From a virus, in the IMG/VR virus record IMGVR_UViG_3300013132_000164, positions 1-31,477 of that record: a stretch of DNA of 31,477 nucleotides; one strand, 5' to 3'. How positions within the stretch are numbered: position 1 is the first letter of the stretch; each line of letters opens with the position of its first letter. This document shows positions 2,887 through 27,196 of the stretch, piece after piece. The notes under the pieces are model-generated. The model saw nothing but the letters and a program-made list of their open reading frames with translations. It searched no databases and had not been told where the DNA came from. The position numbers were made by a program, and so were the translations under genes.

Positions 2887-3834
2887 ATGAAACTTTCTGA
2901 ATTAGTAAAATTAAAAAACGATCTATTAGAGATTCAATCCAATTTGAACAAATTTTTAACTTCCAGTGAAGAACTCACATACGCACAGACTTATCTCAAT
3001 GCATTATCTACCTTAGACTTTACTTTTACTAAAGATATTTGCGGATTTTTTGATATTCTTTCTAAAGAAAAAAACACATTACTGTCTAATTTACACAAAC
3101 AAATTAGGCAAATTGAAGAAAAAATCAACAATCAATCTGCAGTAATGTTAACCCGAGGGTATAAAATAAATGATGCTGAAGTTTGCAGTATAACTTCTAC
3201 AGAGATGGAAAGACTTAACAGGATCGAACAAGCAGATCCAGGTGTAAAGAATTTAGTTAAATCGCAAATTGCGTTAAAAACATCTCCAAGATTCCCTTGT
3301 TTAGAAATTGGACCCGGGGATGGACAATGGACTGAATATTTAGTAGCTGCGGATCCCCTTTATCTAGTAGATATTCATCAAGAATTTTTGGACTCTACAA
3401 TTAATAAATTCGAACCTTCATATAGGCCTCGGGTCCGGCCGTATGTGTTTGTTGAATCGGAAGCTAAAAATCATCTATTAGAAAAGTTACCCGAAGGTCA
3501 ATTTGGATTTGTTTTTGCATGGGACGTATTCTCCTTTTTTCCTGCTGATTTTTTTGAAAGTTATCTCAATTCTATTTTTAAGATATTAAAAGCTGGCGGT
3601 ACAGTAATGTTTAATTATAATAATTGCGAAATTTATCAAAATGCCAAATATGCTGAAACAGGCTTTAAAAGTTGGATGCCAAAATATCTAGTAGAACAAA
3701 TAGCTAAACGAATTGGTTACGACATAGAAAGCCAAGGTAATATAGGACACGTCTATTGGATAATTTTAAGAAAACCTGGCAGTTTAACTACTGTAAAAGG
3801 CATGCAAGGACTTAGAAGAATTATATCTTTTTAA
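2887..3834 (+). CDS. Class I SAM-dependent methyltransferase with helical N-terminal extension
   Basis: The protein is 315 aa. Residues 1-130 are mostly helical and charged, with a probable coiled coil near 60-85 (HKQIRQIEEKIN). Residues 135-240 hold a Rossmann methyltransferase core: motif I LEIGPGDGQW at 139-148, the acidic strand end VDIH at 161-164, and FGFVFAWDVFSFFP at 206-219 in the motif IV region, followed by LKAGGTVMF at 234-242. No (D/N/S)PPY motif typical of DNA N-methyltransferases is seen, so the substrate is not clear. The ATG sits 1 nt after the polymerase stop codon. Its place between polymerase and clamp suggests it travels with the replication genes. It could act on DNA, protein, or a small molecule of the modification pathway; none of these is proven. 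Confidence 0.8.
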   Translation: MKLSELVKLKNDLLEIQSNLNKFLTSSEELTYAQTYLNALSTLDFTFTKDICGFFDILSKEKNTLLSNLHKQIRQIEEKINNQSAVMLTRGYKINDAEVCSITSTEMERLNRIEQADPGVKNLVKSQIALKTSPRFPCLEIGPGDGQWTEYLVAADPLYLVDIHQEFLDSTINKFEPSYRPRVRPYVFVESEAKNHLLEKLPEGQFGFVFAWDVFSFFPADFFESYLNSIFKILKAGGTVMFNYNNCEIYQNAKYAETGFKSWMPKYLVEQIAKRIGYDIESQGNIGHVYWIILRKPGSLTTVKGMQGLRRIISF

Positions 3835-4630: not shown

Positions 4631-6199
4631 ATGTTCACTATTCCACAAGACAATTTAACAAAAAAGCAAAACGACTACGCAATATTTTTGCCGGCCTTAA
4701 GTAGTTTTTATTCGAGGGATATCAGTAAGCAAAGACTAGATCCAAATTATATTGATCCGGCAAGAATCCCTGCGGGATTTGAACATGGTATTGAAGGGAT
4801 GAATTGGCTCAATGACCAGATTGGGTATTTTACTTATAAGTGGAATTTATACAGTGCAGGTCATGCTGATTTAGATGTAAACAAACCACCGGGTCGTGAT
4901 GATATGGTTCGTAATCGAGATCCCAATACATTTATTTTAGGTGATAGCGGTGGATTTCAAATAGGTAAAGGGGTGTGGGAAGGCAATTGGAAAGATCCAA
5001 ATTGTCCCAAAGCACAAAAGAAACGATCTCAAGTTCTTTCTTGGATGGATGCTTACATGGATCGGGGCATGATTCTTGATGTTCCAGCATGGGTTGCACG
5101 TAGTCCTGCAGGCCAAGCAGCCACAGGAGTAACTTGTTATCAAGAAGCAGTCGATGCAACTATGATTAACAACGAATACTTTATGCGTAATCGTACTGGT
5201 CGTTGTAAATTTTTAAATGTATTGCAAGGTGAGAATCACTCAGAAGCAGAAGATTGGTATCAGCAAATGAAAAAATTCTGCGATCCTAAACAATATAGCC
5301 AACCGTTTGAAGGTTGGGCTATGGGTGGGCAGAACATGTGTGATGTTCATTTGTTGCTTAAAAGAATTGTGGCTTTGAGGTTTGATGGGTTGTTGGAACC
5401 AGGTTTACATGATTGGATGCACTTTCTTGGCACTAGTAAATTGGAATGGGCTTTGTTGTTAACTGATGTTCAACGTGCTGTGCGTAAGTATCATAATGAA
5501 AATTTCACTATAAGTTTTGATTGTGCAAGTCCTTTTCTTGCAACTGCAAATGGTCAAATTTATTATGATGTTGCAACTCCTGATCGATCAAAATGGAGTT
5601 ACTTCATGCAACCCAGTGTGGATGATAAAAAATACGCTACTGACCATAGGTCTTTACGTGATGCTATTTTACAAGATCAAGTAATGGATTCATTTATGGC
5701 CAGTCCGATTAGTCAAAGATTAACTGTGAAAGATGTTTGCATATACAAGCCTGGCGACCTTAATAAGATTGGTCGAGAAGGTCGTACAAGCTGGGACAGT
5801 TTCAGTTATACTTTACAAATGGCACATAATGTATGGATGCACGTGAATGCAGTTCAAGAAGCTAATAGACAATATGATCAAGGACTATGTCCTGAAATGT
5901 TAGTAGCAACCACTGCCAATAAACGAGATTTTCGACAATACGATCGTAATTTCTTTAAGGATATTGTAAATGATATTTTTGCTACTAGTGATCGAGGACG
6001 AGCAGATGAACTAGTAGAGCATTATTCAAGATATTGGAAAAGTATTATAGGTACACGCGGTACAGTTGGTAAAAAGACTATTAATGCGTCTTATATGTTT
6101 AACAATTTGTTTGAGTCTGATTCAGAGGATTATCCGGCAAGAGATGACAGTGATTTCGATGAGCAAAGACTTAACGATTTAGAATCTACTGTAGAGTAA
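4631..6199 (+). CDS. dpdA: TGT/DpdA-like DNA guanine transglycosylase
   Basis: This 522-aa protein carries the core motifs of the tRNA-guanine transglycosylase superfamily in the right order: LGDSGGFQ at 103-110 (TGT general-acid Asp, here Asp105), FLNVLQG at 194-200 (TGT VQGG region), GWAMGGQ at 228-234 (TGT GLAVGE), HFLGTSK at 264-270, and FDCASP at 296-301 (TGT FDCVMP), whose Asp297 would be the nucleophile. I do not see the CxCxxC zinc motif that follows in tRNA enzymes, and the remaining 220 residues are unlike TGT. That fits phage DpdA, which swaps guanine in DNA for a 7-deazaguanine. FolE, QueD, QueE and YhhQ genes in the next 14 kb make this role much more likely than tRNA modification. 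The subfamily (DpdA1-4) needs a tree. The ribosome site before the ATG is weak (GAG). Confidence 0.85.
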   Translation: MFTIPQDNLTKKQNDYAIFLPALSSFYSRDISKQRLDPNYIDPARIPAGFEHGIEGMNWLNDQIGYFTYKWNLYSAGHADLDVNKPPGRDDMVRNRDPNTFILGDSGGFQIGKGVWEGNWKDPNCPKAQKKRSQVLSWMDAYMDRGMILDVPAWVARSPAGQAATGVTCYQEAVDATMINNEYFMRNRTGRCKFLNVLQGENHSEAEDWYQQMKKFCDPKQYSQPFEGWAMGGQNMCDVHLLLKRIVALRFDGLLEPGLHDWMHFLGTSKLEWALLLTDVQRAVRKYHNENFTISFDCASPFLATANGQIYYDVATPDRSKWSYFMQPSVDDKKYATDHRSLRDAILQDQVMDSFMASPISQRLTVKDVCIYKPGDLNKIGREGRTSWDSFSYTLQMAHNVWMHVNAVQEANRQYDQGLCPEMLVATTANKRDFRQYDRNFFKDIVNDIFATSDRGRADELVEHYSRYWKSIIGTRGTVGKKTINASYMFNNLFESDSEDYPARDDSDFDEQRLNDLESTVE

Positions 6200-6203
6200 T
6201 AAA

Positions 6204-7067
6204 ATGAAAAGTTTAATTATAGGCATGGGTATAGGACAATTATATAAACAAGTCCTTGAAGAACTTAAATTTGAAGTTGTCACTACTGATTTAAACAAAC
6301 CCGCTGACTACAAATTTTGGCAAGATGCTGTTCGAGATCATCAACATTTTGATACGGTTCATATTTGTACACCAAATTTTACACATAACAGTATTGCGTT
6401 TGAAATTGCCCCCCATTGTCGTATTTTGTTTGTAGAAAAACCTGGCTTACAATACCAATCAGACTGGAGGAAATTAGTCAGTCAAAATCCTAAAACCCGC
6501 TGTATTATGGTCAAGAATAATATGTGGAGAGATAACATTGAAGAATTACAAACTCTCTATAAACAAAGCAATGAAATACGATTTCATTGGTTAAATGAAA
6601 ATAGAGTTCCTTACCCGGGTAGTTGGTTCACTGATAAAAAACTTGCATTTGGGGGAGTAAGTAGAGACTTATTTCCTCACTTGTTGAGTTTGTTTATTGC
6701 ACTGGAACCACAGTACGAACATGCTGCTTGGTTATATAAAAATTCATGGCAACAGTGGGAATTAAAAGATTTAACAGATGGTGATTATGGCAGTGTAAAT
6801 TTCGATGGAACTTATAACGTAGACGATAATATCGACCTAGAATGTACTATAAAAAATCGGAGATGCTTTTTCCGTTCGAGTTGGCGCACTCTTAAACCCA
6901 ACGACATCGGTATTCATTTTGATTCGACATTTGTAGAATTAGGTCTTTGTCCAGAATCTGCTTATCGTAATATGATAATGGATTGCATAGACAACATAGA
7001 TAATAGACTATTTTGGGACAAACAGTTTTATATCGACTATTGGATACACGGAAAAATAAATTTATGA
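6204..7067 (+). CDS. Gfo/Idh/MocA-family NAD(P)-dependent oxidoreductase
   Basis: The 287-aa protein has an N-terminal Rossmann fold (LIIGMGIGQLY at 4-14). The family signature follows: HICTPNFTH at 53-61 and EKPG at 78-81, whose Lys79 is the conserved catalytic-site lysine. A second-domain motif GGVSRDLFPH at 150-159 matches the family GG-x3-D-x3-H and gives Asp155 and His159. It is a little shorter than the usual 330-400 aa family member. These enzymes oxidise or reduce sugars, nucleotide-sugars or inositols at a secondary alcohol. The gene starts 4 nt after dpdA and its stop overlaps the next ATG (ATGA), so it belongs to one operon with the MDR dehydrogenase. The substrate is unknown. Confidence 0.82.
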   Translation: MKSLIIGMGIGQLYKQVLEELKFEVVTTDLNKPADYKFWQDAVRDHQHFDTVHICTPNFTHNSIAFEIAPHCRILFVEKPGLQYQSDWRKLVSQNPKTRCIMVKNNMWRDNIEELQTLYKQSNEIRFHWLNENRVPYPGSWFTDKKLAFGGVSRDLFPHLLSLFIALEPQYEHAAWLYKNSWQQWELKDLTDGDYGSVNFDGTYNVDDNIDLECTIKNRRCFFRSSWRTLKPNDIGIHFDSTFVELGLCPESAYRNMIMDCIDNIDNRLFWDKQFYIDYWIHGKINL

Positions 7068-7963
7068 ATAAAGTATTAGTTACAGAAGGTAAGGGCTCAT
7101 TCGAAGAACGAGAATTTACTACAGGTAAATTAACAGACAATAGCATACTAGTCAAAAGTTTAATGACTGGTGTTTGCAGAAGTGATATTGACATGATGTT
7201 GGGGTCATTTGGTCCGTTGCCTGTCAACATGCAAGGACATGAAGGTCTTGGGCAAGTAATTGCTATAGGCGATAGCGTTGAAGATGTCAAAATTGGGGAT
7301 TATGTAGCAACCAGAGGTGAACCGGCATATGCAGATATGTACATTGCAAAACAATGTGAGTATGTACGTGTTCCTGAAGCGCAGCCAAAATATATTATAG
7401 AGCCGGTTGCATGCGGTATCAACATTGTTGGACAATCATTTACTGAATTAGTTAAACATAGCGGAAAAGGAAAAAAACTTTTAATTTTAGGATCTGGTTT
7501 TTTATCTTGGGTAACTTACCATACTATTATTCTTAATAAATTACAATACATGATTGATATTGTAGGATCAAGTAATAAAAATTTGTGGGAATCAGTAGCA
7601 AGATTAAATCAAACACCCTTAGGTCATTATGATGTTGTTATTGACCTAAGTTCTAATAATATATTATTTGAGCAAGATATTATCGAAAATCAATCATTGA
7701 TAATTATGGGAGTACAAAAACCAATTACTACAGATTTTGGTAACTTTCTTTGGAAAGCCTGTACTATAATATTTCCTAGCCCAAGGTCAAATACTTTTTA
7801 TTCATCAATGCAAGATGCTGTGCATTGGATTCAAACTGGTAAACTCAATGTTGACAAATTTTGGACTAAAGGCTATAATAGACAGACTGAATGGCAACAA
7901 GCATTTAGCGATGGTGTAAATCGACCAAAAAATTATAGCCGTGGATACATTTATTGGGAATAA
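7064..7963 (+). CDS. Zinc-type alcohol dehydrogenase-like protein (MDR superfamily)
   Basis: The 299-aa protein shows the MDR catalytic zinc signature: GVCRSD at 36-41 (Cys38), GHEGLGQV at 58-65 (His59, Glu60) and IEP at 112-114 (Glu113). IGDYVATRG at 77-85 is also typical. The four-cysteine structural zinc loop of classical alcohol dehydrogenases is absent, and the protein is about 40-50 residues short. The nucleotide-binding glycine motif is LILGSGFLSW at 140-149, with the last glycine of GxGxxG replaced by Ser148, so cofactor binding may be altered. It probably oxidises or reduces a polyol, sugar or aminocyclitol. The start is an ATGA overlap with the Gfo/Idh gene; the longer reading frame upstream lies inside that gene. 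Confidence 0.8.
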   Translation: MNKVLVTEGKGSFEEREFTTGKLTDNSILVKSLMTGVCRSDIDMMLGSFGPLPVNMQGHEGLGQVIAIGDSVEDVKIGDYVATRGEPAYADMYIAKQCEYVRVPEAQPKYIIEPVACGINIVGQSFTELVKHSGKGKKLLILGSGFLSWVTYHTIILNKLQYMIDIVGSSNKNLWESVARLNQTPLGHYDVVIDLSSNNILFEQDIIENQSLIIMGVQKPITTDFGNFLWKACTIIFPSPRSNTFYSSMQDAVHWIQTGKLNVDKFWTKGYNRQTEWQQAFSDGVNRPKNYSRGYIYWE

Positions 7964-7964
7964 A

Positions 7965-8495
7965 ATGGCAATAGATACAAATGAACGTCAACAAGTTGAT
8001 TATTTTGTTGGTACTGAAGTAGAAAATACTGCAATGAAAGGAGAAAAAACTCTTTTCGTAGTAGGAGTAAAACCTGTAGAAGAAATCATTGCTTTACTTA
8101 ATGAACAAACGATTAAACATGTTTATTTAGGAACCAGTCAAAGTTTTCATCCCCAAAATCCTTACGAGTGGCAAGAATGGAATGAAATGATCACTGGATT
8201 ACTTGTAAAAGATTATTGGGTCACTTTGGATTTTGATGTCGAATATGCAAGGGATTTTCACGAAGAAGGTTGGTGTGAATACAATAATTTCATTCCAATG
8301 ATCAGTGTAAAAATCCCATATATCAAATTGTACAACTATAATACCACTGTCAAAATTGACGATATGACTTGGGGGCACAGTAATCCCGGTGTTTGGTGTC
8401 ATCCACTTAACGAACTTAAAAACAGAAGTGTATATACAGATTGGCGTGAGTATACCGGAGATACTCCTGTACTTCATAAAGGCGAACAAAAGTGA
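7965..8495 (+). CDS. Conserved phage protein of unknown function (176 aa)
   Basis: I do not recognise a named domain. The protein is soluble and aromatic-rich, with well-formed blocks such as YFVGTEVENTAMKGEKTLFV near 18-37 and FIPMISVKIPYI and PGVWCHPLNEL in the second half. This suggests a real fold under selection. From memory, similar proteins occur in other marine T4-like phages. The ATG is 1 nt after the MDR stop and the stop overlaps the GTG of the next gene, so it is part of the operon running from dpdA to folE. Confidence 0.75.
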   Translation: MAIDTNERQQVDYFVGTEVENTAMKGEKTLFVVGVKPVEEIIALLNEQTIKHVYLGTSQSFHPQNPYEWQEWNEMITGLLVKDYWVTLDFDVEYARDFHEEGWCEYNNFIPMISVKIPYIKLYNYNTTVKIDDMTWGHSNPGVWCHPLNELKNRSVYTDWREYTGDTPVLHKGEQK

Positions 8496-8941
8496 ATCAA
8501 GAACAAAGAGAACAAGTAAATAGAATTATGGAATATGCGGATCGAAAGATCTGGGTAACTTTCCAAAAAGAAGGTATGCACTGCTATCCTGCAGCAGCAT
8601 CCGACCCACAATTAGCAACAGGAGATTATTACGATGTGTCGTTTCTTGCAAATCCTCATAGGCATATCTTTCATTTTCGTGTGTGGATTGATGTTCTACA
8701 CAATGATAGAGACATTGAATTCATCCAATTTAAACGATGGCTCGAATCGTTGTATTCTGGCTCATCGAGTGTTTTGCAACTAAATTATAAAAGTTGTGAA
8801 ATGATCAGTGACGATCTATATGTACAAATTGCCGCACGTTATCCAAATCGATCAGTTTGGATCGAAGTCAGCGAAGACGGCGAAAACGGTGCCTTGATCA
8901 AATATGAAATTAGTCAACCTTCACTTTCAGTAGGCATTTAA
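8492..8941 (+). CDS. Conserved phage protein of unknown function (149 aa)
   Basis: No family recognised. The sequence is compact and mixed alpha/beta, with blocks such as MEYADRKIWVTFQKEGMH (13-30) and IFHFRVWIDVLHNDRDIEFI (59-78). The start is GTG, which overlaps the preceding TGA and is preceded by an AGG-containing ribosome site. It lies between the dehydrogenases and the glycosyltransferase, in the same tightly packed operon, so a role near that pathway is possible but not shown. Confidence 0.75.
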   Translation: MNQEQREQVNRIMEYADRKIWVTFQKEGMHCYPAAASDPQLATGDYYDVSFLANPHRHIFHFRVWIDVLHNDRDIEFIQFKRWLESLYSGSSSVLQLNYKSCEMISDDLYVQIAARYPNRSVWIEVSEDGENGALIKYEISQPSLSVGI

Positions 8942-8942
8942 C

Positions 8943-9140
8943 ATGGCAGATAAAAAATTCTCTAAGCATTACGGTATGAAACCTGAAGTAGATAAAATAT
9001 TTACAGACTTGGAAGATTATCTAAATTATTGTAGAGATAATATGTTGAGATACGACGAACGTGATCTATACAAAACAGATCAATGGCGCAAGTTCGAAAA
9101 ACATCGCAATCGTATGCTCAAAGAAGCACAAAATGGCTAA
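8943..9140 (+). CDS. Small charged phage protein of unknown function (65 aa)
   Basis: A short, highly charged, mostly helical protein rich in Lys, Arg, Asp and Tyr (for example LYKTDQWRKFEKHRNRM near 43-59). No domain recognised. It starts 1 nt after the upstream stop and overlaps the glycosyltransferase start by 8 nt, which supports it as a real coupled gene. Confidence 0.65.
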   Translation: MADKKFSKHYGMKPEVDKIFTDLEDYLNYCRDNMLRYDERDLYKTDQWRKFEKHRNRMLKEAQNG

Positions 9141-10236
9141 GGTTTTTCTAATAGACCTAGAACCTGTAGAAACTAGGTACACTGCACAATGGAAAGTGCA
9201 TGTACCCGAATTACTTAAAAAGGCAGGACACGATGTTGCGATACTATCTGGCCCTAAAGATATTCCTAATTCAACCACTCCAGGTGCTTTTCTTAACTTT
9301 GGTGGCACAAATATCTATAAGTCTTTACAAGTTGAGGGCATGGGTAGGTTATTTTGCTCCGGATCAGTTAAGCCTGGTGATCATTTTTTGTTTACTGATG
9401 CTTGGCATCCTGGTATTATAAATCTCAAGTACATGAGCGAATTACTGGATATCCCAGTAATTACTCATGGGTTATGGCATGCTGGCAGTTATGATAACTA
9501 TGACTTTCTGGGTCGATTGGTTGGCCCTAAACCTTGGGTAAGACACGCTGAAAAAAGTTTTTTCTATTCTTTCGATCATAATTATTTTGCAACTGAATTT
9601 CATGTAAAGTTGTTTTTTGATGAGTTGTTGCACGATGGTTGCACTTCGGAAAATCCTTGGTATGCTGAAGAATGGGAAGATAGATACACTGACGACAATT
9701 GCAAAATTGTAAGATCAGGTTGGCCAATGGAATATATGCCAGCACTACTATCAGCATACGCTAATCGACATAAACGTGATTTGATTGTATTTCCTCACAG
9801 AATTGCACCAGAAAAGCAAGTAGAGATTTTTAGGGATTTACAAACATGTTTGCCCGAATTTGAATTTGTAGTTTGTCAAGATCGGGAACTGACTAAAGAT
9901 GAATATCACAGTATTCTATCTGAGGCAAAAATGGTTTTTAGTTGTAGTTTACAGGAGACATTGGGTATCGGTGCATATGAAGGTGCCCTATTAGATGCCA
10001 TGCCTATTGTACCAGACAGACTGAGTTATACTGAAATGTATCCGGAATGTTTCAAATATCCAAGTGCATGGACAGAAAACTGGGCTAGTTATATTCATTA
10101 CCGAGATTATCTTGTTAATCATATAAGAGTAATGATGAAACACTACGATTCATATCGTGGCCGAGTAAAAACTACAGCAGCAAATTTATCCAATAACTTC
10201 TTTTCAGCTAAACAACTTCTTGCTAACATTCGATAA
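9133..10236 (+). CDS. GT4-type glycosyltransferase (queuosine-mannosyltransferase-like pattern)
   Basis: The 367-aa protein has a two-domain GT-B layout. The C-terminal nucleotide-sugar half is clear: VFPHRIAPEKQ at 219-229, then VFSCSLQETLGIGAYEG at 268-284 containing the family E-x7-E, and MPIVPDRLSYTEMYP at 290-304. Recalled from memory, this order (PHR...K, then E..G..x..E, then P..L.Y.E..P) closely follows GTDC1/QTMAN, the GT4 enzyme that mannosylates queuosine in tRNA. No alignment was run. Close relatives also appear, again from memory, in marine T4-like phages. No signal peptide or membrane segment is seen, so it acts in the cytoplasm, on DNA or a small molecule. Its neighbours (two dehydrogenases, an aminotransferase, then folE) suggest a tailored sugar or a decorated base. 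The ATG follows GAAG; the longer upstream frame overlaps another gene. Confidence 0.85.
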   Translation: MAKVFLIDLEPVETRYTAQWKVHVPELLKKAGHDVAILSGPKDIPNSTTPGAFLNFGGTNIYKSLQVEGMGRLFCSGSVKPGDHFLFTDAWHPGIINLKYMSELLDIPVITHGLWHAGSYDNYDFLGRLVGPKPWVRHAEKSFFYSFDHNYFATEFHVKLFFDELLHDGCTSENPWYAEEWEDRYTDDNCKIVRSGWPMEYMPALLSAYANRHKRDLIVFPHRIAPEKQVEIFRDLQTCLPEFEFVVCQDRELTKDEYHSILSEAKMVFSCSLQETLGIGAYEGALLDAMPIVPDRLSYTEMYPECFKYPSAWTENWASYIHYRDYLVNHIRVMMKHYDSYRGRVKTTAANLSNNFFSAKQLLANIR

Positions 10237-10813
10237 AATTTTTGAATTCGAGCAGCAATTAGCTCGATTTACAGGGGCACCTTATGCAATAATGACGGAC
10301 TGTTGCACCCATGCAATAGAACTTTGCTTACGATATGAGCATGTTCATTATTGCGAATTTACAGCATTCACTTATCTAAGTATTCCAATGACTATGCATA
10401 AGTTAGGAATAACTTATAGATTAGTGCCAGAATATTGGACGGGTGAATATAAGTTTCATACTACAAATATTTGGGATAGTGCTCGGCGGTTAGAATCAAA
10501 TATGTATCGCCAAGGAATGATGCAGTGTCTAAGTTTTGGATGGGACAAACCTTTGGCAATTGGCCGCGGTGGTGCTATATTACTGGATAATGAACAAGAT
10601 TATAATTCATTGATTCGCATGCGTTATGACGGTAGAGATTTGTCTGTCAGTCCATGGGTAGATCAAAAAGAATTCTATGTTGGATATCATTATAAACCTA
10701 CGCCCGAAGAAGCTGCGCAAGGGATCGAATTATTGAACAAATTACGTATTGACAAACCTACACCAAAAAAAGTACAATATCCTGACCTTAGACAAATTAC
10801 AATCAAAGATTAA
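10220..10813 (+). CDS. Short DegT/DnrJ/EryC1-type PLP aminotransferase
   Basis: At 197 aa this is about half the usual 370-400 aa, but the fold-type I core is readable: ARFTGAPYAIMTDCCTHAIE at 15-34 (family GvkyavavsSGTaAL), IWDSARRLE at 84-92 (EDaAHa, giving the PLP-pyridine Asp86), and LSFGWDKPLAIGRGG at 104-118 (SFxxxKxxxxGxGG, giving the Schiff-base Lys110). The end retains the block leading to AAQGIELLNKL. The large C-terminal domain is mostly missing. These enzymes aminate keto-sugars or keto-cyclitols. The start is uncertain: TTG at 10220 is the only start that keeps the N-terminal helix, and it overlaps the glycosyltransferase end by 17 nt. There is no strong ribosome site. It may be active as a minimal form or be a degraded remnant; the intact motifs favour function. 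Confidence 0.75.
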   Translation: MLTFDKIFEFEQQLARFTGAPYAIMTDCCTHAIELCLRYEHVHYCEFTAFTYLSIPMTMHKLGITYRLVPEYWTGEYKFHTTNIWDSARRLESNMYRQGMMQCLSFGWDKPLAIGRGGAILLDNEQDYNSLIRMRYDGRDLSVSPWVDQKEFYVGYHYKPTPEEAAQGIELLNKLRIDKPTPKKVQYPDLRQITIKD

Positions 10814-10815
10814 AT

Positions 10816-11508
10816 ATGGCAGAAAAAACTTTAGCACAAGCAATTCGTGAACGTATGAAAAATAATGGGAAAAGATTCTGGGCTGGAGACAACATTAGTG
10901 GCTACATTGCTCCGTCGGATAAAGAACATTTAATCCAAGAAGCTACTACAGCTTTCGAATCTGTATTAGACGCTTTACTAATTGACAGAGAAACAGATCC
11001 CAATAGTCGAGGAACTGCACGTAGATTAGCAAAAATGTACTTTAATGAGATTATGGCAGGAAGATATGATCCTGCTCCTGATTGTACAGCATTCCCTAAT
11101 GACACAGAAGATCGTTACGAAGGTATGCTTGTTGTTCGCAGCGAGCTTCGCAGTATGTGTAGCCATCATCATCAACCCGTTACTGGTGTTGCTTATATTG
11201 GCATTATTGCTGCTCAAAAACTTATCGGACTTTCTAAGTACACAAGGATCGCACAATGGTGTGCAAGACGTGGTACTCTCCAGGAGGAACTTTGTAATGA
11301 TATTGCTCGGGAAATAGGTCTTGCAACTGGTGCAAAAGACATTGGCGTCTACATTGAGGCTCAACATGGGTGTTGCCTTAATAGAGGAATTATGGCACAT
11401 AGTTCTCTAACGCAGACCACTGTGTTAAAAGGTGCGTTTAAAGAAGATAAAGGAACTAAGAAAGAGTTTTTTGATAATATTCTTCTTCAGTCAAGAAATG
11501 GAAATTAA
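10816..11508 (+). CDS. folE: GTP cyclohydrolase I (first step of 7-deazaguanine synthesis)
   Basis: The enzyme converts GTP to dihydroneopterin triphosphate. The 230-aa protein contains the zinc ligands Cys115 and His118 in MCSHHHQP (114-121) and Cys186 in HGCCLNRG (184-191), plus GLSKYTRIAQWCARR at 138-152, which is typical of the FolE core. The ATG follows the aminotransferase stop by 2 nt. In phages this gene usually feeds the QueD/QueE pathway rather than folate, and both partners lie downstream. The last codons are unusual: they overlap, in antisense, the 3' end of an HNH endonuclease gene, and a second copy of the folE end (12154-12209) lies on the far side of that gene. The current C-terminus, after KKEFFDNI, therefore probably arrived with the mobile element. 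Confidence 0.96.
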   Translation: MAEKTLAQAIRERMKNNGKRFWAGDNISGYIAPSDKEHLIQEATTAFESVLDALLIDRETDPNSRGTARRLAKMYFNEIMAGRYDPAPDCTAFPNDTEDRYEGMLVVRSELRSMCSHHHQPVTGVAYIGIIAAQKLIGLSKYTRIAQWCARRGTLQEELCNDIAREIGLATGAKDIGVYIEAQHGCCLNRGIMAHSSLTQTTVLKGAFKEDKGTKKEFFDNILLQSRNGN

Positions 11509-12088
11509 ATCTTTTCTTGAATAGATAAGGAGTAGTGTTAAAATGTCGTGATACGGCTCCTAGAGTAGGAAAGACTAAATCCTCCACTACTATAGGACGA
11601 ACATTGGGATTGTTGTTATTTAAACTCATACGCTGTCGTTGTTCAGGTCGTTTCATAGGATTGTGTTCAATCATCCGTTGTCGAACTTGTTCAACAATTT
11701 CTGGAGTAGAGAATATATTGTCTTTACCTCGTTTGTAAGAGCCCTTAGATTTACGAGTGTTAGACATTTTAACATAAGATTCAGGGGTACAGTATATTTG
11801 AGGCGTAGGAAGGTGCGAAGTATCGTAGTGTTTATTAAACAGTTTATAGGCATACATCATTTTATATTTGTTTATTCCGATGGTCATTCCTATCAATAAA
11901 CGATGGCAAACTCTATGTTCCTTGTAAGTCAGAACAGCAAGATTATCAGTAGAATCAGTTCCGCCAAAACAGCGTGGAATAATATGATGAGTCTGAAATC
12001 CGTCGTGCCGTTTTTTAAGATGATTACGCTCAAGAGCAATGTTGATTATTCTGTAATAAACTTTAGTGTATTTGTTATCTAAGAACAT
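11456..12088 (-). CDS. HNH homing endonuclease inserted at the folE 3' end
   Basis: One of only two clear genes on the - strand. The 210-aa protein has an HNH motif, HHIIPRCFGGTDSTDNLAVL, followed by a further His in EHRVCH. A C-terminal block (VVEDLVFPTLGAVSRHFN) resembles the NUMOD1/IENR DNA-binding helix of homing endonucleases. I chose the internal Met (AGGA, 8 nt upstream of the ATG) over the Met 15 codons earlier, because a late-type promoter box overlaps that earlier start. The 3' end overlaps folE by 53 bp in antisense. Free-standing endonucleases of this kind cut a cognate gene lacking the insertion and spread by recombination. Confidence 0.88.
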   Translation of the reverse strand: MFLDNKYTKVYYRIINIALERNHLKKRHDGFQTHHIIPRCFGGTDSTDNLAVLTYKEHRVCHRLLIGMTIGINKYKMMYAYKLFNKHYDTSHLPTPQIYCTPESYVKMSNTRKSKGSYKRGKDNIFSTPEIVEQVRQRMIEHNPMKRPEQRQRMSLNNNNPNVRPIVVEDLVFPTLGAVSRHFNTTPYLFKKRFNFHFLTEEEYYQKTLS

Positions 12089-12123
12089 TGACTTATTCCT
12101 ATGTAATGTGTTAAACTCAACTA

Positions 12124-12131
12124 TATTTATC
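12124..12131 (-). promoter_or_regulatory. Late-type promoter box of the HNH endonuclease
   Basis: GATAAATA reads on the - strand, one base from the T4 late consensus TATAAATA, about 36 nt before the chosen start codon. Its position and direction fit late expression of the endonuclease. Confidence 0.5.
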
Positions 12132-12153
12132 AAAATGGATGCTGTGACAAATG

Positions 12154-12780: not shown

Positions 12781-13101
12781 ATGATACCGTTACCGCCGGG
12801 CTGTTCAGTTAACTATGCTATTACCATAGACTTGTCTGAATTAATCACAGAAATGGTTGAATGGTATAAAATGATAGGTGGTATAATAACAGAAAAACAA
12901 TATTGGACTAGAAATAAAGAAATAACAGTACAATATGTCCAATACGGTAAAAGTAAACCCTGCCACCGTAGACAAGATGGTACCACAGGTGTTAGACTAC
13001 ACTTTCACGGCAATGATGCCAGTGTTGCAAGTATGTTCATTATTAAATTTTTGGACTACGTAGAACAAACAAATCTAAATACTCATATGGAAACAGTATG
13101 A
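12781..13101 (+). CDS. Small phage protein of unknown function (106 aa)
   Basis: No family recognised. Mixed alpha/beta sequence with an aromatic helix (ITEMVEWYKMIGGI) and a His/Arg-rich middle (KPCHRRQDGTTGVRLHFHG). It begins 1 nt after the upstream stop and overlaps the next ATG by 4 nt. Confidence 0.7.
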   Translation: MIPLPPGCSVNYAITIDLSELITEMVEWYKMIGGIITEKQYWTRNKEITVQYVQYGKSKPCHRRQDGTTGVRLHFHGNDASVASMFIIKFLDYVEQTNLNTHMETV

Positions 13102-13592
13102 ATTACATTAATATTACGGAACAAGACCACACTAATTTAGTAGCAGATATTGTAAGACAAATTACTAATTCAGGTTGGCGACCCGATTATGTAGTAGGTA
13201 TTACTAGGGGCGGTTTACCTGCCGCAGTTAAAATCAGTCATTATTTTGACCTAAGAATGGAAGCGTTAAAAGTTAGTTTACGCGATGAAGAAAATTCTTG
13301 TGAAAGCAATCTTTGGATGGCCGAAGATGCATACGAAGGTAAAAACATTCTTGTAGTCGACGACATCAATGATTCAGGTGCCACAATTAACTGGATTATG
13401 ACAGATTGGCCATCAGGGTGTCATCCTTTCGACGAACGTTGGGTGTCAGTATGGAACAACAATGTAAGATTTGCAGTTCTGGTAGACAACACCGCCAGTG
13501 CTTGTAAATTGAAAATGGATTACGTAGGTCGTGAAATTACTAAACAAAAAGACGACTGGATTGTTTTTCCCTATGAATCTTGGTGGCGATAA
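13098..13592 (+). CDS. Type I phosphoribosyltransferase (xanthine/guanine PRT-like)
   Basis: The 164-aa protein has the PRPP-binding signature VVDDINDSGATI at 86-97 and the loop VGITRGGLPAAV at 33-44. The C-terminal YVGREI and DDWIVFPYE blocks resemble bacterial Gpt-type guanine/xanthine/hypoxanthine phosphoribosyltransferases. These join a free purine base to PRPP to give the nucleotide. In a phage that exchanges guanine out of its DNA, it could recycle the guanine that is set free. That role is inference; base specificity cannot be read from the sequence. It starts by ATGA overlap and ends 2 nt before the next ATG. Confidence 0.85.
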   Translation: MNYINITEQDHTNLVADIVRQITNSGWRPDYVVGITRGGLPAAVKISHYFDLRMEALKVSLRDEENSCESNLWMAEDAYEGKNILVVDDINDSGATINWIMTDWPSGCHPFDERWVSVWNNNVRFAVLVDNTASACKLKMDYVGREITKQKDDWIVFPYESWWR

Positions 13593-14231: not shown

Positions 14232-14816
14232 ATGGCAATAAAAATTAAAGCAACAAAAGTTTTTAAATATCTACCTTGCGGTCATGCTCAATATTTTGAT
14301 ATTGATCAAGACGGTAGTCCAGGTAACTGTGCAAGCATTCACGGATATGATCGCGAAGTTGAGTTTACCTTTGCAGGAAACATTGATAATCATGGCTGGA
14401 TTATTCCATTTGGCGAACTTGGTCCAGTTAAAAAATTTTTAGAGTATTATTTTGATCATGTAACGGTGCTGCCAGCAGACGATCCTAGACTAGGACAAAT
14501 TACAGAAGAACTTATAGTACCTGGCGGATTACTAGGCACACTTCGCGTACTGCCTAGTGGTGTATCAATGGAAATGAGTTCTGTGTTTATTTGGGAGCAT
14601 GTAAATTATTATATCTATAAAGTCACTAATGGACGATGCTATGTAGAACGTGTTAGAGTTTATGAACACAATCGAAACGACGCTATGTGTGAAGTTGATG
14701 AAATAACAGCTAAAAAAGATGCCCAGCGTAAGATGTTACAAAATGTTGTACTTCCGATGAAACCCAGATGGGACTGGGAGTCACCAAAAGATCTTGTTAG
14801 CCGATTAGAAAATTAA
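14232..14816 (+). CDS. queD: QueD-like 6-carboxytetrahydropterin synthase with altered zinc site
   Basis: QueD turns dihydroneopterin triphosphate, the FolE product, into 6-carboxy-tetrahydropterin, the QueE substrate. The family pattern is visible: CGHAQYFD at 16-23, NCASIHGYDREV at 32-43 (catalytic Cys33 and zinc-ligand His37), the strand plus IIPFGELGPVKKFLEYYFDH at 57-76 (family Gmv.DF..lK......DH, giving Asp75 and His76), and a late Glu in VYEHNRNDAM. The usual HGH motif reads HGY here, so one zinc-binding His is replaced by Tyr39. At 194 aa it is longer than the typical 120-150 aa. Position between FolE and QueE genes supports the call. The gene is preceded by GAGG and by a late-type box, and is followed at once by a convergent homing endonuclease. 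Confidence 0.82.
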   Translation: MAIKIKATKVFKYLPCGHAQYFDIDQDGSPGNCASIHGYDREVEFTFAGNIDNHGWIIPFGELGPVKKFLEYYFDHVTVLPADDPRLGQITEELIVPGGLLGTLRVLPSGVSMEMSSVFIWEHVNYYIYKVTNGRCYVERVRVYEHNRNDAMCEVDEITAKKDAQRKMLQNVVLPMKPRWDWESPKDLVSRLEN

Positions 14817-14836: not shown

Positions 14837-15538
14837 TTACAAAGATAACAATTTCTTACAATTAGTATGATGCCATCTTTTATAATTACCCGATGATAGA
14901 TTATTTTTACCACATACTTCACAAATCTTATTTTTAGTGTTTAGCATTTCGGCAGCTTTTTTATTCTGTCCAACTTGTAATTTTCTAGCTATAGATATAC
15001 GCAATGCTGTTTCAGTCCCTTTTAATTTAACACCATACCTAGGATTACGTTCTCCCTGAGAATGTTTCTTTACCTTAAATGTTTCTTTACGTTTTAACAT
15101 TGCAGATTCAGAAGTAAAATTTTTAATACCATTCTGTCGTAATTTTTCTTTAAATTCCGGATCTTCTTCTTTATGACGCATTCTAGAAATATAGCTTAAT
15201 TTGGCTGCTTTTGCACCGCCCGAGCACTCGGGGGCAATAGATTTGTTATCAGTTTTATTAAGCCAATCGTTGTTTTTAACCGCGTCTACTTTTTTAAGAT
15301 AACTGGTTTCGAATTCTCTGCATTCAACTACAGAAGAAAAAACTCTATGTATAACTATATAATCTGGGGGACCGTGTTCTTTCCAAAATTGTTTTACATA
15401 TTTAGAAGAAGTCTTATATTTTCCTAATAGAATGTTTATTGGTGATGCCTTTTTACCATACTGACATCCGTAATATTTTTTATTATATATTTTCCAGAAA
15501 AGGAAATAGGTGTATGGTTGTTGATTATAAATATTCAT
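14837..15538 (-). CDS. GIY-YIG homing endonuclease behind queD
   Basis: The 233-aa protein begins with a GIY-YIG-type domain: YTYFLFWKIYNKKYYGCQYG at 9-28, with the second half YYG in place of YIG, and Glu residues in VECREFETSYLKK (71-83) where the catalytic Glu is expected. A NUMOD3-like motif, GERNPRYG, follows in the C-terminal half. The end is a probable zinc finger (CEVCG...HHTNC). The gene is convergent to queD and ends 20 nt past it. It has its own ribosome site (AAGGA) and an upstream late box on the - strand. Confidence 0.85.
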   Translation of the reverse strand: MNIYNQQPYTYFLFWKIYNKKYYGCQYGKKASPINILLGKYKTSSKYVKQFWKEHGPPDYIVIHRVFSSVVECREFETSYLKKVDAVKNNDWLNKTDNKSIAPECSGGAKAAKLSYISRMRHKEEDPEFKEKLRQNGIKNFTSESAMLKRKETFKVKKHSQGERNPRYGVKLKGTETALRISIARKLQVGQNKKAAEMLNTKNKICEVCGKNNLSSGNYKRWHHTNCKKLLSL

Positions 15539-15729: not shown

Positions 15730-16380
15730 ATGTTAAACAAAATTTTAGGTAGTGTTGATAGATCATTGGCATATAAGCTAATGGCACTACATGTATTCAT
15801 CGTAGCAGTTAGTAATTATCTTGTGCAGTTCAAGATTGACATTTTCGGAAATCCGTTGGCAGTTGCAGCATTTACTTTTCCGTTGGTTGTAGTCCTTACA
15901 GACTTAACTGTTCGACTAATGGGTAAAGAAACAGGTCGAGCAGTAATTACGCTGGCCTTTATTCCTGCTATTTTGGTAAGTATGTTAGTTGTTAAACTAG
16001 GTGGAGCACCAAGTTCAGTTGCATTTAGAATTGGGTTGGGTTCAGGTGTTGCTTATTTTGTAAGTAATCTATTGGATGTTTATGTATTTCAATATCTGCG
16101 TGAAAAATATGCTACTTGGTGGATCGCTCCTAGTCTAAGTGCGGTAGTAAGTACATTTATTGATACCTATGCCTTCTTCTTTACTGCATTCTACAAAGGT
16201 GCAAATGAATTTATGGCTGCTAACTGGCATATTGTTGCAACCAATAACAGTATTAGTAAAATTTTAGTTAGCCTCCTAGTTATTCTTCCTGCCTATGGTT
16301 TGCTGTTGGGCTGGTTGCAGAAGAAATTCGCAAAAAATGCTAGTGAAGAAAATCCTCATATTGTAAAATCTAATAATTAA
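15730..16380 (+). CDS. yhhQ: YhhQ-family preQ0 transporter
   Basis: A 216-aa integral membrane protein with about six hydrophobic segments. The family core is clear: FTFPLVVVLTDLTVRLMGKE near 57-76 and the later acidic/aromatic membrane motif FIDTYAFFFTAFY (family SDTLAFFFIAFW). In E. coli YhhQ imports 7-cyano-7-deazaguanine (preQ0). In a phage it would pull in the precursor, or its direct product, for DNA modification, which agrees with DpdA, FolE, QueD and QueE here. The start has a strong ribosome site (AAGGAG, 7 nt) and the gene has its own promoter and a following terminator, so it is a separate transcription unit. Confidence 0.95.
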   Translation: MLNKILGSVDRSLAYKLMALHVFIVAVSNYLVQFKIDIFGNPLAVAAFTFPLVVVLTDLTVRLMGKETGRAVITLAFIPAILVSMLVVKLGGAPSSVAFRIGLGSGVAYFVSNLLDVYVFQYLREKYATWWIAPSLSAVVSTFIDTYAFFFTAFYKGANEFMAANWHIVATNNSISKILVSLLVILPAYGLLLGWLQKKFAKNASEENPHIVKSNN

Positions 16381-16410: not shown

Positions 16411-16698
16411 ATGAATAAAACACAACAAGATATTTTAGATATTCTGCAAGAAGAATGTGCAGAATTAATTCAAATGGTGAGTAAGTGTCGCAGGTTTGGT
16501 ATAGACGAACAACATTTAAAAGCAGAGAAGCCAAATCGTGACCGCCTTACTGAAGAAATAGGTGATGTATTAGCTATGATTAATTTGTGCATAAGTTATA
16601 ATATAGTAAATAAATCTGCAGTAGCATCTGCACAAGAAAACAAAGTTAACAAACTAAAAAAGTGGTCAACTATTTTTGAGAATCCCGATGAGAATTGA
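16411..16698 (+). CDS. MazG-like nucleotide pyrophosphohydrolase
   Basis: At 95 aa this is a single MazG-type domain. It has the metal-binding pattern EECAELIQ at 13-20 and [10 protein letters not shown] at 48-57 (EExxE ... ExxD). Such proteins hydrolyse nucleoside triphosphates or alarmone-like nucleotides to monophosphates. Phage versions are thought to tune the host nucleotide pool. The ATG lies immediately after the yhhQ terminator and no clear Shine-Dalgarno is seen, so translation is either weak or depends on the hairpin. The 3' end overlaps guaC by 11 nt. Confidence 0.8.
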
Positions 16699-17812
16699 AG
16701 AAGATATTAAATTAGATTTTAAAGACGTACTAATTCGTCCTAAACGTAGTACACTGTCAAGTCGTAAAGAAGTAGAATTAGCAAGAACATACAAATTTAA
16801 ACATAGTGAATTTGAGTGGACTGGCATACCTATAATGGCTGCTAACATGGATGGTGTAGGCACTATTGCCATGGCAAAGGCTTTATATGATCACAGAATG
16901 TTTACTTGCCTTGTTAAATCATACTTAGAAGATGACGTATGCGATTTAGCAACACAAATAAGCGGTAATCATTTTGCAATTAGCACAGGCACTAGTGATG
17001 CAGACTTTTTACGACTGCGAAGAATTATTAATGCTTATCCCGAAGTGCATTTTATTTGCATTGATGTAGCCAATGGATATAGTGAACATTTTGGCGAATT
17101 TGTTAGCAAAGTACGCACTACATTTCCACATTGTACAATTATTGCAGGCAATGTTGTTACTGCAGATATGACTCAGGAGTTAATTTTACGTGGAGCAGAT
17201 ATTGTTAAAGTTGGCATTGGTCCTGGTAGTGTTTGTACTACTCGTATCCAAACTGGAGTCGGCTATCCTCAACTCTCGGCCATTATCGAATGTGCTGATG
17301 CTGCTCACGGCCTCGGTGGGCATATTATTGCTGACGGGGGCTGTACTTGTCCTGGTGATGTCGCTAAAGCCTTTGGCGCTGGCGCTGATTTTGTAATGCT
17401 GGGAGGTATGTTGGCCGGTCACGACGAAGGTGGCGGGACAGTAGTAAAACATGTCTACAAAAGCACAGAACAAGAAGAAATCACTATTGGCAATAATGAC
17501 AAAGACAGTATTCTTATGCCCCATCTGCGATATCATCCAAAATATATTACTAAAAAAACAGTTGAGTTTTATGGAATGAGTTCAAATACCGCAATGAACA
17601 AACATCACGGTGGTGTAGCTGAATATCGGAGTAGCGAAGGCAGAACCGTGTCAGTTCCATATCGCGGACCAGTTAATTCTACAATATTAGACATTTTAGG
17701 CGGACTGCGTAGTACATGCACTTATGTAGGTGCTTCAACTCTAAAACAATTGCCCAAATGTACTACGTTTGTGCGTGTTAATCGTCAAATAAACGATGTA
17801 TTTGTTAAATGA
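16688..17812 (+). CDS. guaC: GMP reductase with an inserted loop
   Basis: The enzyme reduces GMP to IMP with NADPH and release of ammonia. The 374-aa sequence follows E. coli GuaC closely from memory: [15 protein letters not shown] at 9-23, AANMDGVGT at 51-59, STGTSDADF at 99-107, and the catalytic loop [12 protein letters not shown] at 175-186 (Cys183). The phosphate-site block [13 protein letters not shown] (217-229) and [10 protein letters not shown] (294-303) are also intact. Residues about 253-291 hold an extra loop of roughly 25-30 residues absent from the 347-aa E. coli enzyme. The lack of CBS domains separates it from IMP dehydrogenase. The ATG inside the mazG-like 3' end was chosen because [13 protein letters not shown] matches the family N-terminus. 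It may remove GMP or recycle salvaged guanine. Confidence 0.95.
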
Positions 17813-18021
17813 AATTAACAAAAGACACTCAAAAGGATTATAAAGAAGTCAAAATAGAAAACTGTATGCATTATTCACATCCTAGCATTTACTTAAGTGC
17901 ATCAGGAAAATTTAGTGTGTGTTGTTATCAGAGTAAAAAAAATGTTGACTCTATCGATGAATTATTTTATACTAACCAAGAATTAACAGATAATATTTGC
18001 TTAAAAAGTTGCGGATCATGA
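17809..18021 (+). CDS. Stand-alone SPASM/twitch-like cysteine protein coupled to queE
   Basis: A 70-aa protein with a cysteine spacing that matches the start of SPASM/twitch domains, which bind auxiliary 4Fe-4S clusters in radical-SAM enzymes: Cys19, 13 residues, Gly33, 4 residues, Cys38 (followed by Cys39). A CLKSC motif (Cys64, Cys68) follows near the end. Its ATG overlaps the guaC stop (ATGA) and its TGA overlaps the queE ATG, so it is translationally sandwiched between them. It may be an accessory subunit of the radical-SAM QueE, or a remnant of a larger SPASM protein. No homolog is known to me by name. Confidence 0.65.
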
Positions 18022-18890
18022 AAATTAAAGTAAGTGAGATTTTTTATAGTGCCCAGGGTGAAGGTCGTTTCATAGGTGTCCCTAGTGTATTTTTACGTAC
18101 ATTTGGATGTAACTTTACTTGTTCGGGATTTGGGATGCCTAAGGGGCAACGTAGTGTCGAAGCAGACGAAGTTGCTAAAAATGTACATTTGTATAAAGAC
18201 TTTAATAGCTTGCCATTGGTTAACACAGGGTGTGATAGTTATGCAAGTTGGCATCCTGCTTTTAAAAATTTAAGCCCCACATTGTCAACAGACGAAATTG
18301 TAAATAGAATGTTAGGACTTGTACCTGGGCAAAATTGGCTACAACGTAATGGCAATAATGTTCATTTAGTAATTACCGGAGGTGAACCTTTGTTGGGATG
18401 GCAACGTGCTTATAAGGAATTGTTAAGTCATGAGCGTATGGAAGATTTACGAAATTTAACCTTTGAAACAAACGGCACACAATCATTGCAATCGGACTTT
18501 ATAGAATATATGCAAGAATGGAATCAATCAAGATTTCCACACGGCAATGGCGGGGAAATTACTTTTAGTGTAAGCCCCAAGATAAGTGCCAGTGGTGAAT
18601 CGTGGTCGGATGCTATTCGACCCGATGTCGTAGCATCTTATGAAAACTTAGGAACTGTATATCTAAAATTTGTAGTAGAAACTGACGAACATTTTGCAGA
18701 AGTTGATCGGGCAGTTCAAGAATACAGAGCAGCAGGATTTACTGGTGTGGTCTATGTTATGCCCCAAGGAGGCACCAAAGAACAATACGAAGGCAATCTA
18801 ACTAAAGTAGCAGATATGGCTATGGCCAGAGGGTATTATTTAAGTCCACGATTGCATTGTTCCATTTGGGGCAATGGATGGGCTAAATAA
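18018..18890 (+). CDS. queE: Radical-SAM 7-carboxy-7-deazaguanine synthase, atypical cluster motif
   Basis: QueE rearranges 6-carboxy-tetrahydropterin to 7-carboxy-7-deazaguanine. The 290-aa protein begins with the QueE signature FYSAQGEGRFIGVPSVFLR (9-27) and keeps the SAM-binding GGEP (121-124) and ETNGT (150-154). The cluster motif is unusual. Normal CX3CX2C reads Cys31-X3-Cys35-X2-Phe38, but a later CDSY at 72-75, in the expected Cys-Asp-Thr/Ser setting with a following Trp, can supply the third ligand, giving CX3CX36C. The QueE of Burkholderia multivorans has a different expanded motif, so variation has precedent. The start ATG overlaps the upstream TGA. A 13-bp inverted repeat surrounds the stop codon. 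An alternative call, NrdG-type activase, is unlikely given the QueE N-terminus and the neighbours. Confidence 0.9.
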   Translation: MKIKVSEIFYSAQGEGRFIGVPSVFLRTFGCNFTCSGFGMPKGQRSVEADEVAKNVHLYKDFNSLPLVNTGCDSYASWHPAFKNLSPTLSTDEIVNRMLGLVPGQNWLQRNGNNVHLVITGGEPLLGWQRAYKELLSHERMEDLRNLTFETNGTQSLQSDFIEYMQEWNQSRFPHGNGGEITFSVSPKISASGESWSDAIRPDVVASYENLGTVYLKFVVETDEHFAEVDRAVQEYRAAGFTGVVYVMPQGGTKEQYEGNLTKVADMAMARGYYLSPRLHCSIWGNGWAK

Positions 18891-18918: not shown

Positions 18919-18936
18919 AAACAAAGGATGGTCAGA

Positions 18937-19695
18937 ATGGGGCAAAAAGGATATACACACCAAGAGTTTGTTAAATTAGTAGAACTTGTAAATCCAACTA
19001 TAAAAATAATAGGAAAATTTATCAACTCGTCAACTAAAATTTTAGTAAAATGTGAACATTCGGAAAGAGAGATTGTTGCATGGCAACTTTTAAAGCAAAA
19101 AAAATATTGCTGTAATTCTGCATATCACAAACAAAGAGTGCCGGCGCAGTTAAGATCACTAAGTGATCGTATAGAACAATATTCGCCGATATTTAATAAA
19201 TTGTTAGATTTTTCTAATGCATCTCTTGAAAGTTCGCAAAAACTAAACAATATTAAATGTAACAAACACAATATAATATTTTCTCAATGGTTTGATGCGT
19301 TGCGGCAAGGAATCGGTTGTCCACAATGTGGTAAAGAGCATAAACGGAATGCTGGCATTAATATGCTAAAAATAGCAAGGCAGCAACAATTAAATTTAGG
19401 CCATGCGAAATATATATCAAAAAGCGAAACTAAATGGCTCGATAGTTTAAATGTTCCTATTAGGCAGCATTGGTTATCTGACGTGAAATATAATGTAGAT
19501 GGATATGATCCAGTTTCAAATACAGTTTATTTATATCACGGGAGATTTTGGCATGGATGCATCGAAACTTTTGATCCAGAAATGATTCACCCAATTCTTA
19601 AAGTTAAAATGAAACAACTATACGAACAAACACTAGAATGGGAGTCAAAAATAAAAAATGCAGGGTATCAATTAATCGTGCAATGGGGCAAATAA
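18937..19695 (+). CDS. Vsr-like (EDxHD) homing endonuclease behind queE
   Basis: The 252-aa protein has an N-terminal half with zinc-ribbon-like repeats (KCEHS...CCNS, and IKCNKH followed by IGCPQCGKEH). Its C-terminal catalytic part resembles the EDxHD superfamily typified by I-Bth0305I: SETKWLDSL at 163-171 (Glu164), NVDGYDP at 186-192, and YLYHGRFWHG at 198-207. These are free-standing homing endonucleases of phages. The ATG at 18937 was preferred over the one 9 nt earlier because AAGGA then stands at a normal distance. The gene ends in IVQWGK, and the last DNA resembles the end of queE (GCAATGG, then GGC, then AAATAA), which hints at fusion to an old queE end. Confidence 0.82.
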   Translation: MGQKGYTHQEFVKLVELVNPTIKIIGKFINSSTKILVKCEHSEREIVAWQLLKQKKYCCNSAYHKQRVPAQLRSLSDRIEQYSPIFNKLLDFSNASLESSQKLNNIKCNKHNIIFSQWFDALRQGIGCPQCGKEHKRNAGINMLKIARQQQLNLGHAKYISKSETKWLDSLNVPIRQHWLSDVKYNVDGYDPVSNTVYLYHGRFWHGCIETFDPEMIHPILKVKMKQLYEQTLEWESKIKNAGYQLIVQWGK

Positions 19696-26331: not shown

Positions 26332-26337
26332 TCCACA

Positions 26338-26378
26338 GGAGTCGAAGACAACATGGGAATGACTATGTCTTCGACTCC
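26338..26378 (+). promoter_or_regulatory. 13-bp perfect hairpin over the next gene's start codons
   Basis: GGAGTCGAAGACA (26338-26350) pairs with TGTCTTCGACTCC (26366-26378) across a 15-nt loop. The Shine-Dalgarno-like GGAG is inside the stem, and two of three in-frame ATGs are in the loop. No T-run follows, so it is not a standard terminator. It may control translation of the next gene or stabilise the moxR message. Confidence 0.6.
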
Positions 26379-26682: not shown

Positions 26683-26683
26683 T

Positions 26684-27166: not shown

Positions 27167-27167
27167 T

Positions 27168-27196
27168 TTGACAAATATTCCAATATTTCTTATAAT
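27168..27196 (+). promoter_or_regulatory. Strong early promoter of the VWA gene, repeat-family member 4
   Basis: Perfect TTGACA, 17 nt, TATAAT; the spacer contains the palindrome AAATATT-CC-AATATTT. Confidence 0.9.

Follow-up and report, generated by a model that had tools for sequence, protein, structure and literature searches.

A conserved 7-deazaguanine and sugar gene set that many large phages appear to carry is predicted to glycosylate a modified DNA base

Introduction

Why should a run of sugar-enzyme genes lie between the gene for a predicted DNA base-exchange enzyme and folE? The run occupies positions 6204-10813 of IMG/VR virus record IMGVR_UViG_3300013132_000164, a 31 kb virus fragment analyzed here over its full length of 31,477 nt (the window). 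It encodes a Gfo/Idh/MocA oxidoreductase (Gfo), an MDR dehydrogenase, three proteins designated unkA, unkB and unkC, a glycosyltransferase (GT), and a DegT-type aminotransferase. A first-pass annotation of the DNA had suggested that these genes, together with an upstream dpdA-like gene, produce a hypermodified 7-deazaguanine bearing a sugar or an aminocyclitol. Here we report that a conserved 7-deazaguanine and sugar gene set appears to be present in many large phages, and that DpdA, the GT and unkB are its constant members.

To our knowledge, the 7-deazaguanines reported in phage DNA bear small groups only, and the sugar-bearing DNA bases described to date derive from pyrimidines. No report of glycosylated 7-deazaguanine DNA was found in the literature searched (subscription papers and preprints beyond that set were not covered). 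Simple 7-deazaguanine derivatives occur in phage DNA (Hutinet 2019, PMC6884629), a 2026 review of jumbo phages mentions deazaguanine incorporation as predicted only, and the paper on phage PA5oct says nothing about modified phage DNA. In the Menderavirus queuosine cluster of phage Ps15, ORF137, which resembles myo-inositol-1-phosphate synthase, is reported to lie between FolE and QueC/QueE (PMC9025141).

Results

The association of the GT with DpdA was assessed across IMG/VR, where 402 candidate stretches encode GT relatives. Among the distinct loci with enough flank, pooled from four scans, DpdA and unkB were each present in 128 of 128 and unkA in 122. Loci recovered through the optional sugar genes gave the same picture, as all 39 MDR-anchored and all 36 DegT-anchored loci with wide flanks carry both DpdA and the GT. 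The cassette was thus not found to be common in phages without dpdA or queE, a pattern that the first-pass annotation had named as contrary to its proposal. The co-occurrence with dpdA that it proposed as a check is constant for the GT, while Gfo, MDR and DegT are optional. DpdA, the GT and unkB, usually with unkA, are a real co-inherited system.

The window shows this system in a compact arrangement. All cassette genes are on the plus strand, and adjacent genes are separated by or overlap by 1-17 nt; the seven-gene run indeed begins 4 nt after the dpdA-like gene and ends 2 nt before folE, as first described. Compared with the related locus L008, every cassette gene is under purifying selection (pN/pS, the ratio of nonsynonymous to synonymous polymorphism, 0.12-0.33), and synonymous sites are near saturation. 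These low ratios, together with a gene set that recurs in hundreds of contigs, indicate that the cassette is more than a chance assembly.

In tblastn searches of annotated phages, the PA5oct/Ettore/Paride group gave matches to the GT, dpdA and MDR, and phages Phosso, ACP17, X1, BUCT-ZZ01 and PhiXhv gave matches to the GT. The DpdA-GT linkage spans phages of Pseudomonas (the PA5oct/Ettore group), Acidovorax, Xanthomonas and Synechococcus, in varied gene orders: dpdA-GT-unkB-QueE in Ettore, with Gfo-MDR-unkA about 27 kb away; QueD-FolE-unkA-DpdA-GT-unkB-QueE in ACP17; FolE, intervening genes, then GT-DpdA-unkB-QueE in X1; and QueE-phosphoribosyltransferase-QueD-FolE-second GT-DpdA-unkB-GT in BUCT-ZZ01. 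In Phosso, the GT, unkB, FolE and QueE are clustered. The link between DpdA and the GT therefore persists when the other neighbours change. The second GT of BUCT-ZZ01 (positions 5010-6353 of locus L104) is a different GT4-like protein directly upstream of DpdA, which perhaps adds a second sugar.

Xanthomonas phage PhiXhv-15 encodes Gat-QueC, a PIG-L deacetylase, a distant GT relative and a Gfo/Idh protein in one run (L103:5669-9755), which is an independent cassette for sugar and 7-deazaguanine. In Vibrio phage 2.275.O, a 370 aa protein without a family assignment (NVP2275O_469; L089:11723-12835) adjoins DpdA and lies between DpdA and QueF; considered as a GT relative, it was rejected, being unrelated to the GT of the window.

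The scan of bacterial and archaeal genomes returned 14 GT loci. Six of these are alphaproteobacterial (L349-L353 and L355, from Rhizobiales, Devosia, Azospirillum, Aurantimonas, Methylobacterium and Pelagibacterium) and have DpdA adjoining the GT or a few kb away; two also carry unkB, and folE and queE are not nearby. These loci are possible bacterial DNA-modification islands. Full-length QueC was not found in the Devosia (L350) and Aurantimonas (L352) genomes, where DpdA and the GT are present, and these two may therefore use a base other than preQ0. A large recombinase is present at L349. Separately, four phage-like contigs (L345, L346, L348 and L356) were found in metagenome-assembled genomes labelled Neomarinimicrobiota, Euryarchaeota, Pacearchaeota and Deltaproteobacteria, and L346 carries the core genes with Gfo and MDR.

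The dpdA-like gene (4631-6199) encodes 522 aa of the TGT superfamily. In alignment with E. coli TGT, the protein retains the motifs D105SGGFQ, D150, Q199G, GG and D297, the nucleophile Asp, and among 198 distinct homologues D105, D150 and D297 are kept in 197-198. Its profile matched E. coli TGT at E 0.0017 with 15% probability, neither Pfam (TGT model included) nor PHROGs gave a relevant match, and hhalign showed no link to the DpdA of phage 9g (probability 0.4). The assignment was therefore made on motifs and context, which mark the protein as a remote DpdA subfamily predicted to exchange bases in DNA. A second DpdA subfamily, reached weakly by the window's DpdA profile, is common to X1, ACP17 and BUCT-ZZ01, and the same GT and unkB are used with both.

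The GT gene (9133-10236) encodes 367 aa. Its AlphaFold2 model (pLDDT 81) had glycogen synthase 3l01 as best Foldseek match (E 1.4e-8, probability 1.00), with GlgM, BshA, MshA and PglA also among the matches. Motifs of the retaining-GT4 kind are conserved: R223 of the donor-site R..EK is present in 214 of 214 sequences, with E227 and K228 also conserved, and in the [E/D]x7E motif 127 sequences have E and 87 have D at position 275, and E283 is kept in 213 of 214. The window GT on its own had no Pfam or PHROGs match. From this model and these motifs, the protein is predicted to be a GT-B fold enzyme of the GT4/GT5 kind, in keeping with its first description as a GT4-type glycosyltransferase. Its likening to the queuosine mannosyltransferase QTMAN/GTDC1 did not survive: the QTMAN_N domain (PF12038) was absent from all 24 family members examined, even at E up to 1, and membership of that family was rejected. 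Because none of the 24 has this N-terminal domain, the likeness reflects general GT4 motifs. The QTMAN family was also not found in 190 alphaproteobacteria or 14 control genomes.

The three proteins originally left without a family differ in what could be learned about them. The core protein unkB (8492-8941, 149 aa, phrog_17812) gave nothing against QueD in single-sequence hhalign; with deep profiles (alignments of 313 and 147 sequences), it matched QueD at probability 90.7 and P 1.2e-6, and 12 control families all gave P>0.01. Residues H30, H56, H58, E103 and E128 are invariant in 225 sequences, which include the His and HxH of the metal site. The alignment lacks the catalytic Cys and the Asp-His dyad of QueD, and there was no match to PF01242 or any other Pfam family. 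By its profile, unkB is predicted to be a QueD-like T-fold paralogue and not a sugar enzyme. As a substitute for QueD it was rejected; since 10 of 12 large genomes also encode a standard QueD, unkB counts as a T-fold protein in addition to it.

The other two proteins still have no assignable family. The second core protein, unkA (7965-8495, 176 aa), is partly TIM-barrel-like and was modelled confidently (AlphaFold2 pLDDT 87), with no Foldseek match in the PDB at E<=0.001 and no assignable family from a PDB profile search. Its best BFVD match was its own ACP17 orthologue. Residues E18, E20, K130, D132 and D133 are invariant in 205 sequences, and six acidic or lysine positions in all are kept in 203-205 of 205. 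Of 58 loci with upstream flank, 48 encode the small unkC protein (8943-9140, 65 aa).

The remaining cassette genes form two optional modules. The first consists of Gfo (6204-7067, 287 aa), which follows the dpdA-like gene by 4 nt, and the zinc-type MDR dehydrogenase (7064-7963, 299 aa), which overlaps Gfo by ATGA. Gfo scored just under the cut-off for PF01408 (E 2.5e-4; 22.2 bits, cut-off 24) and keeps GxGxG, EKP and DxxxH in 69-73 of 73 homologues. Its best profile match in the PDB was DgpA (E 1.7e-9), an enzyme that oxidizes the glucose residues of C-glycosides; as a lead only, this relation would suit an enzyme that works on an already assembled glycoside. MDR matched PF08240 (ADH_N; E 3e-11, 44 bits, cut-off 23.5), and its putative zinc ligands C38, H59, E60 and E113 are kept in 73-74 of 74. 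Ettore (L002:6340-8108) is the exception: Gfo has lost GxGxG and EKP there, and MDR the putative zinc Cys and His; both genes still lie beside unkA.

The second module pairs DegT (10220-10813, 197 aa), whose TTG start lies within the GT gene, with an S-adenosylmethionine-dependent methyltransferase (2887-3834, plus strand; Methyltransf_23/11/25), which had no match in the PDB search. The call of a DegT-type aminotransferase holds by PF01041 (E 1.5e-12, 47.8 bits, cut-off 19.8) and by its intact pyridoxal phosphate site, Lys110 and Asp86 being present in 112 of 112 homologues; its length is about half the usual. The whole family measures about 192-226 aa and lacks the C-terminal domain, against 370-440 aa for its PDB matches, which include perosamine synthase and NtdA. 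The methyltransferase is present in all 74 DegT loci.

Both modules occur together in 14 loci, Gfo and MDR only in 37, DegT only in 60, and neither in 17. The Fisher p of 2e-8 for this negative association is not unbiased, as MDR, DegT, the GT and unkB were themselves the queries of the scans that supplied the loci and the loci are interrelated, yet the separability of the modules is plain. Gfo with MDR, and DegT with the methyltransferase, are thus separate optional modules that are mostly mutually exclusive and were found only with the core; the window belongs to the minority of loci with both. The first-pass annotation had placed these enzymes in one aminosugar or aminocyclitol pathway of the 2-deoxystreptamine kind. 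Because the modules are separable and mostly exclude each other, a single fixed pathway of this kind is disfavoured, and no carbocycle-forming synthase was found among the window open reading frames scanned, the window being a 31 kb fragment.

Genes for 7-deazaguanine synthesis and guanine supply follow on the plus strand. FolE, GTP cyclohydrolase I (10816-11508; PF01227 E 8e-38), begins 2 nt after DegT. Next are a purine phosphoribosyltransferase of the xanthine/hypoxanthine-guanine type (13098-13592; PF00156 E 3.5e-16; NCBIfam xanthine phosphoribosyltransferase E 3e-9, below cut-off), QueD, the 6-carboxytetrahydropterin (CPH4) synthase (14232-14816; PF01242 E 7e-14, phrog_2389 E 7e-27), a YhhQ-type 7-deazaguanine transporter (15730-16380; PF02592 Vut_1 E 5e-22), an IMPDH/GMP reductase-type protein for guanine nucleotide supply (16676-17812; PF00478 E 2e-66), and QueE, the 7-carboxy-7-deazaguanine (CDG) synthase (17997-18890, likely ATG start 18018; phrog_2076, QueE-like radical SAM, E 2e-54). 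Neither QueC nor QueF turned up in the window. Among 12 large genomes searched, full-length QueC and QueF were present only in Vibrio phage 2.275.O, and three others had short QueC-like stretches only.

Further neighbours in the window are PolB and a clamp-like protein, the relative of which in Phosso bears a sliding-clamp annotation. HNH/homing-endonuclease-like genes are interspersed among the que genes at 11456-12133 (minus strand), 14837-15538 (minus) and 18928-19695 (plus). Positions 25222-28510 encode a MoxR-like AAA ATPase, two small genes and a DUF2201/VWA metallopeptidase-type protein.

Discussion

The genes of this locus belong to a DpdA system in which the GT is a constant partner, and a glycosylated 7-deazaguanine is for this reason the best reading of the cassette. 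We put at roughly two in three the probability that the phage makes a 7-deazaguanine, that DpdA inserts it in DNA, and that the GT glycosylates it, with variable tailoring. The hypermodified base first suggested is retained in its glycosylated form, given the constancy of DpdA and unkB with the GT; its aminocyclitol decoration is unsupported.

Building on the observed gene content, folds and motifs, constant linkage and purifying selection, we propose the following scheme for the DNA target, order of steps, handle, sugar and roles of unkA and unkB. FolE, QueD and QueE would yield 7-carboxy-7-deazaguanine. Since no phage QueC was found, host QueC is proposed to convert it, probably, to preQ0; alternatively the acid may be used directly. 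DpdA would then put the 7-deazaguanine in place of guanine in the phage DNA, unkB and unkA may work on the base or hold it so that a nucleophilic handle is exposed, and the GT4-type enzyme would move a sugar from a host nucleotide-sugar onto that handle. In some phages Gfo and MDR may oxidize or epimerize the sugar, and in some DegT and the methyltransferase may make an amino group and then methylate it. The likely purpose would be to evade restriction and modification-dependent nucleases.

Four observations weigh against a glycosylated DNA base. QueF was not found, which leaves no obvious route to the aminomethyl handle of preQ1. The GT family is marginal in Pfam, with PF00534 matched by 9 of 24 members at a best E of 2.5e-4. 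DpdA of Phosso lies about 170 kb from the GT. The Wroclawvirus copies of Gfo and MDR lack key motifs, and these proteins may as a result serve another role there.

The main alternative is that the DNA carries a simple 7-deazaguanine (dPreQ0, dCDG or similar) and that the GT and sugar enzymes merely share the operon while working on host surface glycans or sugar-nucleotide metabolism. Known phage systems with FolE, QueD, QueE and DpdA do yield unglycosylated bases (PMC6884629), and the sugar enzymes Gfo, MDR and DegT are of generic types. Against this, the GT and unkB never occur without DpdA in the 128 loci, and the DpdA-GT linkage is kept in bacterial contigs without phage replication genes and with the second DpdA subfamily, which makes the alternative unlikely.

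About equally unlikely is that the DpdA-like enzyme and the GT target tRNA, as a glycosylated queuosine-type base, or a protein. Members of the TGT superfamily modify tRNA, glycosylated queuosines occur in tRNA, and the fold and motifs cannot reveal the substrate. In type IV CBASS, a TGT-like enzyme is reported to help conjugate 7-deazaguanine to protein (PMC11996544). Contrary to this alternative, the gene lies beside PolB and the clamp-like protein in most loci, QueF was not seen, and the GT has no QTMAN_N domain. That the GT acts on a free base or nucleotide to give a small-molecule decoy or signal is very improbable: a free pterin or a free 7-deazaguanine is a conceivable ligand of the QueD-like unkB, but DpdA, by family a polymer-level exchange enzyme, is constantly present.

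Glycosylation of a DNA 7-deazaguanine would extend known systems in specific ways. The locus shares FolE, QueD, QueE, a DpdA-type transglycosylase and YhhQ with the 7-deazaguanine DNA systems of Enterobacteria phage 9g, CAjan and Vibrio nt-1 (Hutinet 2019, PMC6884629). Those systems combine DpdA or DpdA2 with FolE-QueD-QueE-QueC; here QueC, an amidotransferase and QueF were not found, the GT, unkA and unkB form a constant set, and DpdA has no PHROGs or Pfam match and was not linked to its 9g counterpart in hhalign. In T-even phages, glucosylation of hydroxymethylcytosine by alpha-GT and beta-GT likewise has GT-B enzymes decorate an unusual phage DNA base (PMC13216743). There the hydroxymethyl handle on cytosine is made before replication, whereas here, as proposed, a purine base is exchanged after synthesis, and the T4 enzymes were not among the best 50 Foldseek matches of the window GT. 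QTMAN/GTDC1, which forms mannosyl-queuosine in tRNA, is also a GT4-type sugar transferase with general GT4 motifs in a 7-deazaguanine pathway; the window GT differs from it in lacking QTMAN_N and in being linked to DpdA instead of a tRNA TGT. Amino and N-methylamino sugars are made by Gfo/Idh with DegT proteins (NtdC/NtdA, kanosamine) or by DegT with a methyltransferase (DesV/DesVI, desosamine). Compared with these pairs, DegT is half-length here, Gfo is paired with MDR, and the two modules are rarely together.

More tentatively, and with somewhat less confidence than doubt, we suggest that this widespread phage family and some alphaproteobacterial islands replace guanine with a glycosylated 7-deazaguanine whose sugar is lineage-specific (keto, amino or N-methylamino), built by DpdA-GT-unkA-unkB and exchangeable modules. 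The prediction is directly testable, because cultivated phages of the group exist and several, among them Ettore, Paride and Cassandra, are grown on the laboratory strain PAO1. If true, a sugar on a DNA purine would be chemistry new to genetic material and would confront restriction and CRISPR nucleases with a new obstacle, and hundreds of phage genes now without annotation would gain a function. The copies in bacteria point to a counterpart encoded by hosts.

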